Source: Spirochaetales bacterium (GTDB lineage Bacteria; Spirochaetota; Spirochaetia; DSM-2461). From it: 64,000 nucleotides of DNA. This document shows positions 8,583-14,100 of this stretch, piece after piece. Under the pieces are notes generated by a model. It was given only the letters and a program-made list of their open reading frames with translations, was not told where the DNA came from and ran no database searches. The position numbers and the translations under genes were made by a program. Position 1 is the stretch's first letter, and each line of letters begins with the position of its first letter. Where the stretch lies: positions 1-64,000 of the forward strand of contig JAFGXR010000023.1 of assembly GCA_016936555.1 (NCBI GenBank), read 5' to 3'.

Positions 8583-9245
8583 TCAGAAAGCACCCCAGGC
8601 GTCGAGAATCTCTCCGGCGGTCTCTTCAGCTGGTCTTTCACCCGTATCGAAAAATCTGATATCCAGAACAGACAGCTCTGCCAGTTCCTTCAGATATTCC
8701 TGCTGCCTTAGGAAATGATCAATGATCTTCTCATCGCTATCACCGAAGCGCCTGATGTAATTCATCCACATGGCGTCTCTGCCCGAGAGAATCCTCTCGG
8801 CCAGCATGTCGCGGTCCGCCGTCAGAATAACGGCGCGGCAGTTCAGCTCTTGTAATTTTTTATCGACAGATTTGACATCGCTCCAGCTCATATGCCCGTA
8901 CTGATACACATGGGTGAAATGAAACCGTTCCAGAATATAGGGTATCCTCATGGCCCTCTGGTTTCTCCGGCACCACTCCATGGCATCGAGTCGCGATTTC
9001 AAACGGCTGATATTTTCCAGGTGCTCCTCCAGAAGCGAGAGATTGTCCCGGACAGACAACCCCTCCTCACGGTCCTTCTTTTCAAGAACTCTCTGGGTCT
9101 GGTGTTCGGACATGATATAGGAGGAAAATCCGCTCCGGTTCCGGAACCGGTCCGATTGGAGTATGGACCGCAGAATTTCCGTCTTCCCCGTACCGCTGAT
9201 CCCCTCCAGAATCAGTCCCGAGACATTCCAGCTTTCCCCGCTCAC
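8583..9245 (-). CDS. P-loop kinase-like NTPase
   Basis: A 220-residue protein with a Walker A loop near residues 14-21 (GISGTGKT). Its helical layout resembles deoxynucleoside or thymidylate kinases: an ERFHF segment near 105 at the place of the family's acidic/arginine motif, and a hydrophobic strand (CRAVILTAD) before an LAERI helix. Lid arginines occur around 155-165. No specific substrate can be assigned. The GTG start overlaps the stop of the upstream acyl-CoA synthetase by 4 nt (GTGA), so the two are co-translated; whether that reflects a shared pathway is unknown. Confidence 0.6.
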   Translation of the reverse strand: MSGESWNVSGLILEGISGTGKTEILRSILQSDRFRNRSGFSSYIMSEHQTQRVLEKKDREEGLSVRDNLSLLEEHLENISRLKSRLDAMEWCRRNQRAMRIPYILERFHFTHVYQYGHMSWSDVKSVDKKLQELNCRAVILTADRDMLAERILSGRDAMWMNYIRRFGDSDEKIIDHFLRQQEYLKELAELSVLDIRFFDTGERPAEETAGEILDAWGAF

Positions 9246-11149
9246 TTCAGGATTTCCCCTGCTGCCTTGATGTTGAGTTCATTCTGATGCACCTTACCCT
9301 CATCGCTATACATATAATCAATGCGATCCTGATAGGTTTCGGTTATTTTATATCTCACCATTTTCATGGTCGAGTTAATCATCTTGTTCTGTTCGCTGAA
9401 AGGCTCTGTAATCAACTGGAAGGTCGATGGCGTCCAGAGCGACGGGAATCTGGCTGAATCGCCGCCTTTCTTCCAGGCATTGAGGTTTTCCTCTACCTTA
9501 TCAAGGAATTCTTCAGGAGAACTGATCTTCAAGGAACGGGCTTTCAGCGGATCAACCGTCAGAAGACAGGTGGTATAATTGCTGTGGTCGCAATAGAGCA
9601 TGACCTGGGCGATGAGATCCTGAGTGCTGACGATGGTTTCCTCGATCTCCTCGGGGGAATATTTTTCTCCGTCCCTGGAGATGAGCAAGGCTTTGGCCCG
9701 GCCGGTTACCTGGAGGAAATTATCTTCATCCATATAGCCGAGATCACCGGTATAGAGCCAGCCGTCCCGGATTGACTCCTTCGTGGCATCTTCGTTTTTC
9801 AGATAGCCCTTCATAACATTATCGCCGCGGATAGCAATTTCACCCTTTTCCCCGACTGCGGCTTCCCTGCCATCGCCCTTCATGATCTTCAGCTCGATAT
9901 TGGGAAGCACATTTCCCGATGATCCGAATTTATGGCGATGAGCCGCATTGGTGGAGATGATGGGTGTCGCTTCCGACAGACCGTACCCCTGGTAGACCGG
10001 CGCCCCTATGGCATTAAAAAACTCCTGCTGGTTCACATCGAGAAGGGCTCCCCCGCCGATGGAAAAATGAAAATTCTTTCCGAATACAGCTCTCAGTTTC
10101 GGGTAGATAAGCAGATTGGACAATCTGTAGGCCCACATCCCTTTGACATGACGTTTTTTCGGCTCATACCCGTTCCCGTGGTACTCGATACCGGCTTTCA
10201 GACCTATCTCGAAGAGCGATGCGATCAAACCGCCTTTGGCCATAACGCCGGACTTCATCTTCTTCATGAAATTGCCCGTAATGGCCGGTACGGTAAGAAT
10301 GAAATAGGGATCGGTCTCCTGAAGGTTGACCGGAATATTCCTCAAAATCGATGAAGCTCCGCCTCTCGCGTCGACGAAATAGAGAGTCAGGCCAATCAGA
10401 TAGGCGGCGTAGAGAGCGACCGTATGGGCGAAAGAATGATCTATAGGCAGGATTACCAGCGAAGAAATCCGCTCCGGCAGTCCGGCGACATCGAGTCCTC
10501 CCCTGCAGTTGGCCCAGTAGTTGAGATGGGTCAGCATTATCCCTTTGGGATTCCCGGTCGTCCCCGATGTGTAGCATATGGTTATGACATCATCCTCATC
10601 GGCTTCATTCATCAGTTTATCGAGAGTCTGAATTGTTTCTTCATCAACCCGGCTCCCCTCATTGATCAGATCGTCATAGGTCAGCAGATTTCCGCCTCTT
10701 TCCAATCCGTCAACTTCTTCCAGGCCTTTGATTTTATCATCGGAATCGTAGTAGACGAACAGAAGATCACCATCGAAACTCTCCCGGGCCTCCAGAACCT
10801 TGGGAAGAGTTATATGGGAAAAGAAAATGACTTTGCTTTCCGAGTGATTGACCCGGAAGGGGATCTCTTCGGTCAGAAGCTTGAGGGACAGGGGAACAGA
10901 TATACCGCCAAGCATAATAACAGCGAGCTCGCTGATGACCCATTCACTTCTCCCTTCGGAAATTATGGAGAAGGAATCGCCTTTCCCGTAGCCTCTTCTG
11001 ACAAGAGCCCTTGAAATTTTCAGAGCACGCTCTTTTGTTTCGGCAAATCCGATTTTATCCCACCCCTCATCGGTTTTATTGGCCAGATAGGGATAGTCTC
11101 CGTATTTTTCAACAGCTTCATTCATCATTCTCAATACAGTCTGCTTCAT
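9242..11149 (-). CDS. Long-chain acyl-CoA synthetase (AMP-forming)
   Basis: A 635-residue ANL-superfamily ligase that activates fatty acids with ATP and CoA. The P-loop-like motif TICYTSGTTGNPKG (about 195) and the adenylate-binding YQGYGLSEATP (about 395) are intact, as are the GWLYTGDLG motif (about 470) and the hinge/FACS region TGRAKALLISRDGEKYSPEE. The length suits the FadD/bubblegum-like long form. The ATG at 11149 with AAAGAGG is preferred over a GTG at 11164. It heads a two-gene unit with the P-loop kinase and is divergent from the adenylate kinase fusion. Confidence 0.9.
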   Translation of the reverse strand: MKQTVLRMMNEAVEKYGDYPYLANKTDEGWDKIGFAETKERALKISRALVRRGYGKGDSFSIISEGRSEWVISELAVIMLGGISVPLSLKLLTEEIPFRVNHSESKVIFFSHITLPKVLEARESFDGDLLFVYYDSDDKIKGLEEVDGLERGGNLLTYDDLINEGSRVDEETIQTLDKLMNEADEDDVITICYTSGTTGNPKGIMLTHLNYWANCRGGLDVAGLPERISSLVILPIDHSFAHTVALYAAYLIGLTLYFVDARGGASSILRNIPVNLQETDPYFILTVPAITGNFMKKMKSGVMAKGGLIASLFEIGLKAGIEYHGNGYEPKKRHVKGMWAYRLSNLLIYPKLRAVFGKNFHFSIGGGALLDVNQQEFFNAIGAPVYQGYGLSEATPIISTNAAHRHKFGSSGNVLPNIELKIMKGDGREAAVGEKGEIAIRGDNVMKGYLKNEDATKESIRDGWLYTGDLGYMDEDNFLQVTGRAKALLISRDGEKYSPEEIEETIVSTQDLIAQVMLYCDHSNYTTCLLTVDPLKARSLKISSPEEFLDKVEENLNAWKKGGDSARFPSLWTPSTFQLITEPFSEQNKMINSTMKMVRYKITETYQDRIDYMYSDEGKVHQNELNIKAAGEILK

Positions 11150-11189
11150 GTAATCCTCTTTCACACTATGTTAACATAATTTTAAATAT

Positions 11190-11218
11190 TTGCCCTCCGC
11201 GTTTTTCTGGCTTAATCT
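11190..11218 (+). promoter_or_regulatory. Putative promoter of the double adenylate kinase gene
   Basis: TTGCCC (11190-11195) and TAATCT (11213-11218) have a 17-bp spacer, 31 nt before the ATG, which has a GGGAG site. A perfect palindrome ATGTTAACAT at 11168-11177, next to the divergent acyl-CoA synthetase start, could be an operator. Confidence 0.4.
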
Positions 11219-11249
11219 TTATATAAATCACACTAAAACGGGAGCTATT

Positions 11250-12419
11250 ATGTTAAATATTGCATTGTTCGGCCCTCCCGGTGCCGGAAAAGGGACTCAA
11301 TCGGAATTTCTCATAAAAGAATACAATCTCTTTTACATTTCCACCGGGGACATTCTGAGAAATGAAATCGCCAATGAATCGAAGCTAGGTCTCGAAGCAA
11401 AAAGCATAATCGCCGCAGGCGGTCTCGTATCCGATGAAATCATTGTCCAGATTATCGAGAAAACTATCGTCAGCAACCCCTTCTCCAACGGATTTCTCTT
11501 CGATGGTTTTCCCAGAACCTATATCCAGGCCTATATTCTCGAGGGGCTGATGATCAAGCTCAATACATCTCTCAACTGCCTGATCAGCCTGGAAGTGGAG
11601 GAAGAGGAGTCTGTAGCCAGGCTTCTCAACCGGGGAAAGACATCGGGGCGGATGGATGATAACGAAACGGTTATCCGCAACCGCTTAAAGGAATACCATG
11701 ACAAAACCCTGCCGGTTCTTCAATTCTACAAAGACAAAGGCATACTACGCTCTGTAAACGGGAGCCAGGGGATAGAAACCGTCACGGAAGATATCAGGAA
11801 TATTATCCGCGGCGAACTGAAAAACAGCCTCTACAATGTGGTGCTCTTCGGATACCCCGGTTCGGGACGGGGAACCCAGGGGAAAGCCCTGGCGGAAAAA
11901 TTCGGCCTGGAATACGTAGCCACGGGAAACATGCTCGACGATGAGATCAAATCGGGTTCTGAAATCGGAAAACGGGTCGAAGAGATATATGACAGCGGGA
12001 AACTCGTTCCCGATGAAATCATAGTCCAGCTCATCGAGAAGAAACTAGAGGAATCCAAGGATGTAAAAGGTTTTATTTTCAAGGGATTCCCGCGTACTCT
12101 CGTACAGTCCTATATTCTCGACGGATTGCTGAAAAAACACGGCTCGTTCATTTCCCAGGTCATAGAGATAGAAGTGCCGACGCTCCAGCTGATCAGCCGG
12201 CTCGATGCACGCCGCCAGACCAACGATGCCCGCCCCTATGACAGCAACACTTCAAAAATCGTTCAGCGGCTTCAGGACCATCAGGAAAAAACGGTCCCCG
12301 TAATCGAAAAATACAACGAACAGCACGGCGTACTGAAAATCAACGGCGAGGGAACCTTCGAAGAGGTGTTCGATAAAATATCCGCCGAAATTTCCAAAGG
12401 CCTGGACAGCATGAGATAA
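11250..12419 (+). CDS. Tandem-duplicated adenylate kinase-family protein
   Basis: A 389-residue protein made of two adenylate-kinase units. The first (1-190) is complete: P-loop FGPPGAGKGTQ, the STGDILRNE helix, DGFPRT for NMP binding, and a short lid with RMDDN. The second (about 195-389) repeats the fold but is degenerate: the P-loop Lys is Arg near residue 207 (GYPGSGRGTQ), DGFPRT is KGFPRT, and the lid arginine/aspartate motif reads ARPYDSN. So one active and one probably inactive or regulatory unit. Whether it is the cell's housekeeping enzyme (AMP + ATP to 2 ADP) is unknown. The start has GGGAG; an upstream Met is in the leader. Confidence 0.88.
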   Translation: MLNIALFGPPGAGKGTQSEFLIKEYNLFYISTGDILRNEIANESKLGLEAKSIIAAGGLVSDEIIVQIIEKTIVSNPFSNGFLFDGFPRTYIQAYILEGLMIKLNTSLNCLISLEVEEEESVARLLNRGKTSGRMDDNETVIRNRLKEYHDKTLPVLQFYKDKGILRSVNGSQGIETVTEDIRNIIRGELKNSLYNVVLFGYPGSGRGTQGKALAEKFGLEYVATGNMLDDEIKSGSEIGKRVEEIYDSGKLVPDEIIVQLIEKKLEESKDVKGFIFKGFPRTLVQSYILDGLLKKHGSFISQVIEIEVPTLQLISRLDARRQTNDARPYDSNTSKIVQRLQDHQEKTVPVIEKYNEQHGVLKINGEGTFEEVFDKISAEISKGLDSMR

Positions 12420-12426
12420 TATTCAT

Positions 12427-12470
12427 TTATATACGGTACGGTCGCGACCGTACCGTATATAATTTATTTT
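12427..12470. terminator. Bidirectional terminator with perfect 36-nt palindrome
   Basis: Positions 12427-12462 form a perfect inverted repeat with no spacer (half-site TTATATACGGTACGGTCG), followed by TTTATTTTTT. It lies between the convergent adenylate kinase fusion and the XRE-cupin-PTB gene and starts 7 nt after the former's stop. It also overlaps the stop side of the latter. Confidence 0.7.
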
Positions 12471-13945
12471 TTCAAAACGTGCTGCGAATAGACGGCGCTG
12501 GCGCAGAGCGTCAGGAATTTCGTCATATCGCTGTCGCTCCGTGATGTCAGGATTACCGGCACTCTGGCTCCAAGAACGACATTGGCCACATCGGCTCCCA
12601 TTGTCATGGCCCAGGCTTTATAGAGGAAGTTTCCACCGGATATATGGGGGACAATGAGAATATCCGCTTTGCCCGCTACAGGCAGATCTGTCATTCCCTT
12701 GTGCTTTACCGATTCCTCGTACAGAGCGAGGTCATAGGAAAGCGGTCCGTAGACCGTGGCGTTCTTCCATTCCATTTCCGAAAGCTGTTTCGCGAAAATG
12801 CTGGTCGGTATTTTATCGGAAGGCTTTTCATTGGCATCGAGAATGGCCACATTCGGTTTTTCCACACCCATACTCTGAGCTACATCAATGGCATTGAGGA
12901 TAATATCTTTTGAAGCTTCAACATCGGAGGAAGGCGTAAGAGCCGTATTGATTCCCGGGTCGGTGAGAAAGACCAGTCTGTCCACTTCGGGAAGTTCGAA
13001 GATGCTGACAAGTGAGAGCCGTCTTCCCGTCCCGATTCCCTTCTCTTTATTCAGGATGGCCTTCATAAAAACAGCTGTGTTGATTTTTCCCTTCATGAGC
13101 ATATGACCTTCACCGCTGTGAATCAGCTCTATTCCACGCTCGGCGGCCGCTTTTTCAAAGTCTTCCGCAGAGGGATCAATTTCAACGAACTCATAGTATT
13201 CGGGATATTTGAGCAGGTCCGGATTATAGGAGGAACTGTCACCGACAAAGAAAGCTGTTTTAACGACCTTTTCCTCAATGGCCCTGTTGACCGCTTCAAG
13301 GGCTGTCGAGTTGGGCATAATAACCACGACGTTCATGCCGCCGATGACTTTAGCTCCCTGAATCAGATTGCCCATCAGCGGGCTTCTGGCAAAATTCATC
13401 ATGGACTTTTCATTATAGATCGAGGCGAGTATTCTGCAGGGACCTCCGATCGCGTTCAGTGCATGACGGAATGAGGAATCGAAATAAATCGTATCCCCTT
13501 CATTGAGAATATGTTCTTTATCATCGACAATTATCTTCAGCGTACCGTTTATGACATAATGGAACTCCTCCCCTTCATGGGTACTGTATTCCAGATTCGC
13601 TTCATCCTGTTCGAAAACTTCAACCAGCAGAGGCTCCATATGCCGTCCGCTGTAATCAGGGGCCAGACTTTCGTAGTTGTGCCGTTTTCTTCTTTCCACG
13701 ACCTGCCTGGTTTCAGGTCGTGTTACGACAACACCGGCTTCATGAAATTCCTTTCCAAAGATCAGAGCCGAAATATCGGTTCCAAGAGCGGCTGAAATGC
13801 GCATCAGTTCGGAGACGGCCGCTTCAATATCTTTCTCTTCAAGATCTATAAGGTAATTCGTCGACAAGCCCGTCATTTCGGCAAGATTTTCAAGGGAAAG
13901 GCCTTTCCCGGTTCGTATGGTTTTAATGTTATTTCCCGTATGCAT
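12464..13945 (-). CDS. XRE-cupin regulator fused to phosphate acetyl/butyryltransferase-like domain
   Basis: A 493-residue three-part protein. Residues 5-60 are an XRE/Cro-type helix-turn-helix (IRTGKGLSLENLAEMTGLST). Residues about 110-175 are a cupin with THEGEEFHYVINGTLKII and DTIYFDSSFRHALNA, as in PuuR-type regulators. From about 190 to the end runs a phosphotransacylase-like fold: GAKVIGGMNVVVIMPNS, FLTDPGINTALTPSS, and the C-terminal ADILIVPHISGGNFLYKAW and VILTSRSDS typical of phosphate butyryl/acetyltransferases. A DNA-binding sensor thus seems joined to an acyl-CoA/acyl-phosphate domain. It may regulate acyl metabolism by binding the metabolite directly. AGAGAGG precedes the ATG. 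Confidence 0.85.
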   Translation of the reverse strand: MHTGNNIKTIRTGKGLSLENLAEMTGLSTNYLIDLEEKDIEAAVSELMRISAALGTDISALIFGKEFHEAGVVVTRPETRQVVERRKRHNYESLAPDYSGRHMEPLLVEVFEQDEANLEYSTHEGEEFHYVINGTLKIIVDDKEHILNEGDTIYFDSSFRHALNAIGGPCRILASIYNEKSMMNFARSPLMGNLIQGAKVIGGMNVVVIMPNSTALEAVNRAIEEKVVKTAFFVGDSSSYNPDLLKYPEYYEFVEIDPSAEDFEKAAAERGIELIHSGEGHMLMKGKINTAVFMKAILNKEKGIGTGRRLSLVSIFELPEVDRLVFLTDPGINTALTPSSDVEASKDIILNAIDVAQSMGVEKPNVAILDANEKPSDKIPTSIFAKQLSEMEWKNATVYGPLSYDLALYEESVKHKGMTDLPVAGKADILIVPHISGGNFLYKAWAMTMGADVANVVLGARVPVILTSRSDSDMTKFLTLCASAVYSQHVLKK

Positions 13946-13980: not shown

Positions 13981-14040
13981 GAGAGGCGTTGTTCTCTCGG
14001 TCAACAAAGCATCTCTCGTTGATATATATGCTGTATTATA
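13981..14040 (-). promoter_or_regulatory. Promoter and repeat-rich operator of the XRE-cupin-PTB gene
   Basis: On the minus strand a perfect TATAAT (14035-14040) lies upstream of two direct repeats of TCTCTCG (plus strand 13993-13999 and 14012-14018), 19 bp apart, and an inverted pair GAGAG (13981-13985) / CTCTC (13994-13998). The same-face spacing suits a dimeric XRE protein, so autoregulation is plausible. Confidence 0.4.
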
Positions 14041-14100
14041 CTTCATTCATATATATATAGCGAGAAAAAACCGAAAAACGTAATTACATTCCAGTGGAGA

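Follow-up and report, generated by a model that had tools for sequence, protein, structure and literature searches.

A fused XRE-cupin-phosphotransacylase protein

The subject of this analysis is a fusion gene carried by a 64,000-nucleotide stretch of DNA from Spirochaetales bacterium (assembly GCA_016936555.1, contig JAFGXR010000023.1, positions 1 to 64,000), which is referred to as a whole as the window. The gene is an uninterrupted open reading frame (ORF) of 493 codons starting with ATG, and its coordinates are listed with those of other features in Table 1. Three Pfam domains were assigned to the encoded protein: an XRE-type helix-turn-helix (HTH) (HTH_3; 31.1 bits against a cut-off of 23), a cupin (Cupin_2; 48.8 bits against 27.2) and a phosphotransacylase domain (PTA_PTB, PF01515; residues 265-477, 94 bits against 24). 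The first-pass annotation had described an XRE HTH, a cupin and a phosphate acetyl/butyryltransferase-like domain in one protein. This composition was borne out, and the last domain proved to be a complete phosphate butyryltransferase (Ptb), separated from the end of the cupin by only a short intervening segment.

Table 1. Location of the fusion gene, its domains and associated features
Feature	Coordinates or loci	Strand	Basis
Fusion gene XRE-HTH / cupin / phosphate butyryltransferase, 493 aa	12464..13945	-	Single ORF, domain matches, full-length relatives
XRE helix-turn-helix domain, residues 7-59	13769..13927	-	HTH_3
Recognition helix, residues 27-38	13832-13867	-	Part of XRE domain
Cupin domain, residues 113-174	13424..13609	-	Cupin_2
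Complete Ptb domain, residues ~190-488	12482..13378	-	PTA_PTB, NCBIfam Ptb models, CaPTB residue comparison, Foldseek
Genus-conserved promoter region: ACGTTTTTCGGTTTTTTCTCGC (14060-14081), TATAAT (14035-14040)	14035..14081	-	Alignment of four upstream regions
Terminator-like hairpin, 16 pairs	12427..12462	.	Between convergent fusion and adenylate kinase genes
Stand-alone XRE-cupin/oxidoreductase operon loci	L174-L178, L181-L184, L049, L050, L053, L061

The NCBIfam Ptb models span residues 187-488, that is, the whole of Ptb, yet their scores fall under the curated cut-offs; for TIGR02706, the fusion reached 214.5 bits against an equivalog cut-off of 410.5. Given that the ordinary-looking Ptb of an ior-ptb-buk operon is also below this cut-off (273 bits), the fusion is best described as a Ptb-type acyltransferase and not as a certified butyryl equivalog. 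An AlphaFold2 model built from 78 sequences resolved three folded domains and was confident throughout, with a mean predicted local distance difference test score (pLDDT) of 92.2, a predicted template modelling (TM) score of 0.87 and pLDDT values >90 in the HTH. It supersedes an earlier model built from 15 sequences, in which the cupin was modelled with low confidence (pLDDT 25-45). The best Foldseek match to the C-terminal half was Ptb from Clostridium acetobutylicum (CaPTB; PDB 7VG9), with a TM score of 0.92 on the target, a root-mean-square deviation of 1.6 and 36% identity; likeness in full-length fold to Ptb, including the branched-chain phosphotransacylase 1YCO, is thus accompanied by an XRE-cupin N-terminus that Ptb does not have. 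The N-terminal half gave a looser structural match to hydroxypropylphosphonic acid epoxidase (HppE; TM ~0.5 on the target), and a sequence search with this half matched the XRE-cupin protein 1Y9Q as well as HppE. In the library searched, no publication linked phosphate butyryltransferase with cupin and XRE domains, and another search, on fused regulators, gave nothing relevant by title and abstract.

The first-pass annotation had proposed a domain-order search as a check on how widely the fusion is conserved. The fusion was located in 22 genomes. These comprise the four genomes of the window's genus, without exception, a further 11 Spirochaetota (G047, G050, G419 and eight additional records, including one truncated at the end of its contig) and, among 25 genomes from the Desulfurella/Hippea phylum, seven. 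Stop-free, full-length copies in the three other genus members are 93, 82 and 81% identical to the window protein, and copies in the 18 further genomes, one ended by a contig boundary, are 50-65% identical. The distribution is patchy: none of 22 further members of the window's family has the fusion, nor was it found in samples of 395 genomes from the phylum of a Syntrophaceae relative and 399 from that of a Maledivibacter relative. A tree built from 83 Ptb-type sequences grouped the fused domains into one clade (100/100) on a long stem of 1.68, separate from other Ptbs, and the XRE-cupin halves likewise formed one clade (98 in the SH-like approximate likelihood ratio test, SH-aLRT). Monophyly of each half fits a single fusion event, with loss or transfer afterwards, and the fusion is probably of single origin. 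An assembly join or frameshift between the halves is ruled out by the intact copies in 22 genomes and their grouping as one clade.

Active-site residues and the butyrate kinase partner

The residues for substrate binding and catalysis in CaPTB have been named (PMC9706017). Positions K97, K228, N250, K254, S279, R280 and D282 of CaPTB are identical in 21/21 fusion copies and correspond to K285, K416, N439, K443, S468, R469 and D471 of the window protein; K97 is also invariant among stand-alone Ptbs. K186 and S283 are incompletely retained among the fusions. Computed over 20 full-length copies, the C-terminal part of Ptb is the most conserved region of the protein, with 41% invariant positions, compared with 26% in the cupin, 24% in the linker preceding it and 5% in the HTH.

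The genomic setting also bears on the enzyme half. Each of the seven fusion genomes in the Desulfurella/Hippea phylum has exactly one acetokinase-superfamily gene, and this lies directly upstream of the fusion; the three of the seven kinases that were scored all exceeded the curated butyrate kinase cut-off. The 18 fusion-free genomes of this phylum have an acetate-kinase-like gene or nothing, and none (0/18) has the butyrate kinase type. Over the 25 genomes, such an exact match would arise by chance in 1 of 480,700 cases if the genomes were independent, which they are not. A PTA_PTB search of four Desulfurellales genomes gave no Ptb-type gene other than the fusion; three of the four also encode a long PTA-domain protein. 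The gene order in L044 and L045 is a stand-alone XRE-cupin, genes for a 2-oxoacid:ferredoxin oxidoreductase of the POR/VOR type, butyrate kinase and the fusion; in L042 and L043, unrelated genes precede butyrate kinase and the fusion. A kinase neighbour is also found in spirochaete G050, where the order iorA, iorB, ptb, buk, fusion places two Ptb-type genes in one cluster.

Given that key catalytic and CoA-site residues are invariant and that butyrate kinase adjoins the gene in Desulfurellales, the enzyme half is probably working. Here, a Ptb-type reaction (acyl-CoA + phosphate ↔ acyl-phosphate + CoA) would be coupled to a butyrate-type kinase, such that ATP is made or used through the acyl-phosphate. 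The first-pass annotation had instead raised the possibility that the enzyme-like domain lets the DNA-binding part respond to acyl-CoA or acyl-phosphate. A precedent exists in the hybrid malic enzyme MaeB, in which, as in the fusion, a phosphotransacylase-fold domain is joined to another function; its phosphate acetyltransferase (PTA) domain is an acetyl-CoA sensor that appears to lack critical catalytic residues (PMC7902834). The fusion keeps these residues and is paired one-to-one with butyrate kinase in Desulfurellales, and its Ptb domain is therefore more likely to act as an enzyme than to serve solely as a sensor.

As to the acyl group, POR-type neighbours suggest an acetyl or branched acyl substrate, and Ior neighbours an aryl-acetyl substrate. 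A gene of the LeuA type (isopropylmalate/citramalate-synthase-like) lies directly upstream of the fusion in L033, L037 and L039, which hints at branched-chain or acetyl-CoA metabolism. Branched-chain amino acid fermentation by a marine spirochete is known from the title of a 1981 publication in the reference list of PMC9201399. Within the window's genus, an iorAB-ptb-buk-aminotransferase cluster is located elsewhere (G000:C44), and the window's own genome has two butyrate kinases, neither adjacent to the fusion. One of these is an orphan with no ptb neighbour (G000:C113:32704-33747; L110 7699-8760) that scores above the cut-off at 488 bits; it is a candidate partner of the fusion.

The recognition helix, the promoter and the cupin

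XRE-cupin regulators of the PuuR, ErfA, PsdR and PauR type (PDB 1Y9Q) share with the fusion the HTH_3-then-Cupin_2 order and the cupin motifs; the fusion differs from them in its extra enzyme domain and its unconserved recognition helix. No other part of the fusion is as poorly conserved as this helix, in which 0 of 12 positions are invariant over the 20 full-length copies. A stand-alone XRE-cupin of the same domain order and a similar cupin (YExLA, HxEP and HxGEEF motifs), which lacks a Ptb domain, provides the comparison. Across five Desulfurellales genomes that encode both proteins, recognition helix identity was 45% among the fusions and 100% among the stand-alones, against cupin identities of 70 and 86%, respectively; the corresponding values in the window's genus were 57 and 100% for the helix and 79 and 84% for the cupin. 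For two pairs of genus members, the nonsynonymous divergence (dN) of the fusion was 0.24-0.28 in the HTH and 0.08-0.11 in Ptb, and that of the HTH in the stand-alone orthologue was 0.00-0.035. Such a pattern suggests that the DNA-reading half is eroding and that specific recognition may have been relaxed or lost. The stand-alone protein heads 2-oxoacid:ferredoxin oxidoreductase operons in Desulfurellales and in deltaproteobacterial lineages (Syntrophaceae, Desulfothermus).

Upstream of the gene, the four genus copies share ACGTTTTTCGGTTTTTTCTCG, in which three positions vary, and TATAAT. This conserved promoter region was not picked up by a scan for the sigma-70 consensus. It adjoins, and partly overlaps, the region 13981-14040 that the first-pass annotation had suggested for a DNA-binding test. 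A regulon search based on the block, covering two genomes, gave no second copy at ≤2 mismatches, and matches at three mismatches did not exceed the reversed control overall. The block is nearly constant across the genus while the recognition helices differ; it could be the basal promoter, a site bound by some other factor or a self-site independent of the variable residues. In the fusion leader of L038 and L039, an 11-bp inverted repeat (TAACTGATCAC...GTGATCAGTTA; one mismatch in L039) lies between a -10-like box and the ribosome site.

These data bear on the possibility that the protein is a trigger enzyme or acyl-CoA-gated transcription factor, in which the HTH would bind an operator, probably within the promoter of the fusion gene itself, with binding altered by acyl-CoA, by acyl-phosphate or by flux through Ptb. 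The retained HTH fold and the selection acting on it agree with this proposal, as do the promoter block conserved within the genus and the MaeB example of PTA-type sensing; moreover, in Pseudomonas, XRE-cupin regulators act locally to repress neighbouring metabolic genes (PMC7901475). Nevertheless, the recognition helix varies, in contrast to its invariance in true regulators encoded by the same genomes, and the block is unique in the genome and unchanged while that helix changes. The MaeB sensor domain, which appears to lack critical catalytic residues, differs from the fused Ptb, and in the Desulfurellales operons headed by the stand-alone XRE-cupin a regulator whose recognition helix is invariant is already present. 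Of the first-pass proposal, the conserved three-domain fusion and the complete Ptb thus hold up, but the regulatory role is weakened; the protein may still bind DNA, yet a gated transcription factor is considered unlikely. Distinctly unlikely is the version in which a single polypeptide is both an active phosphotransacylase reading its own acyl-CoA/acyl-phosphate flux and, through its XRE-cupin half, a repressor or activator of its fermentation genes.

The predicted metal ligands of the cupin, H123, E127 and H161, are invariant in 20 copies and align with the His/Glu/His metal site of HppE. HppE resembles the N-terminal half of the fusion in combining an XRE-type HTH with a metal-cupin scaffold; there, however, the cupin is itself the enzyme and no Ptb domain is present. 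The triad and the Foldseek retrieval of HppE would fit a bifunctional enzyme in which the metal cupin catalyses a reaction of its own beside that of Ptb. HppE-type chemistry requires oxygen or peroxide, whereas the lineages carrying the fusion are mostly anaerobes, and the same His/Glu/His pattern is present in ordinary XRE-cupin regulators, so that it is no sign of catalysis. Bifunctionality is accordingly judged highly improbable. Alternatively, both N-terminal domains could be leftovers that merely aid oligomerization of Ptb without sensing anything. The HTH evolves faster than the remainder of the protein, and Ptb is known to oligomerize (PMC9706017), but invariant positions, the metal triad among them, are retained at 24-26% in the cupin and the linker before it, and this explanation appears very unlikely.

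The explanation moderately favoured here is that the protein works as an acyl-CoA:phosphate acyltransferase in an acyl-phosphate/ATP pathway, its XRE-cupin half having turned sensor or scaffold. An XRE-cupin regulator would have been captured by gene fusion, its cupin pocket, with a probable metal, being kept as a ligand sensor or oligomerization scaffold acting on the enzyme, and specific DNA recognition by the HTH being relaxed or lost. The sequences directly show the fusion and its conservation, the intact active-site residues, the one-to-one kinase linkage in Desulfurellales and the loose recognition helix, whereas catalytic activity, the acyl substrate, the cupin ligand with its effect on the enzyme, and the loss of DNA binding are inferred. 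On balance, the protein probably serves fermentation as an enzyme that carries its own sensor, and not as a gene switch.

Several observations weigh against this explanation. In most spirochaetes the fusion is not beside buk and a separate Ptb is also present, such that the fused enzyme may be redundant there. Changes fixed in the fusions where stand-alone Ptbs are conserved (H124L, K153S and S221Y in CaPTB numbering), together with a further fixed difference (G266N), indicate that the substrate range may differ, and with the long stem of the clade they could mean an altered substrate or function. The fused HTH is under purifying selection (omega ~0.06-0.11 where the synonymous divergence, dS, was computable); given also that HTH_3 scores above its cut-off, the fold is kept and the HTH does something. 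A loose recognition helix could also belong to a regulator with one co-evolving site. Net charge of the HTH averaged -3.7 in the fusions and +2.8 in the stand-alones, a tendency only, in a comparison that used 30 stand-alone rows, one of which (L215) is a wrong-frame ORF; charge was dropped as decisive proof of lost DNA binding because stand-alones of the window's genus are also at -2 to -3.

If the favoured explanation is true, a metabolic enzyme has captured a transcription factor, apparently converting it into a sensor or scaffold, and an intact XRE-cupin regulator encoded in the same operon constitutes a natural control. Control of acyl-phosphate/ATP formation by a cupin ligand in anaerobic spirochaetes and Desulfurellales becomes testable. 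For annotation, such proteins could carry either a regulator or a phosphotransacylase label.

Genes adjoining the fusion in the window

An acyl-CoA synthetase gene is present at 9242-11164. The first-pass annotation had placed it about 2.5 kb away; the gene is indeed nearby, but the gap between it and the fusion gene's end is 1.3 kb, or 2.8 kb when measured from start to start. This neighbour is conserved in the genus; beyond the genus it was seen in a single lineage, ~4.8 kb from the fusion. It is parted from the fusion gene by the hairpin and by a convergent tandem adenylate kinase gene. Both the synthetase and the adenylate kinase were rejected as partners, since their adjacency is mainly genus-level and a terminator-like hairpin stands between the convergent genes.

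The tandem adenylate kinase (ADK) gene itself (11190-12419, plus strand, with a likely ATG near 11250) is a single ORF with two ADK domains, of which the second has the P-loop GYPGSGRGT, in which Lys is replaced by Arg, and KGFPR in place of DGFPR, both kept in four genus genomes; the protein probably joins an active ADK to a pseudo-ADK.
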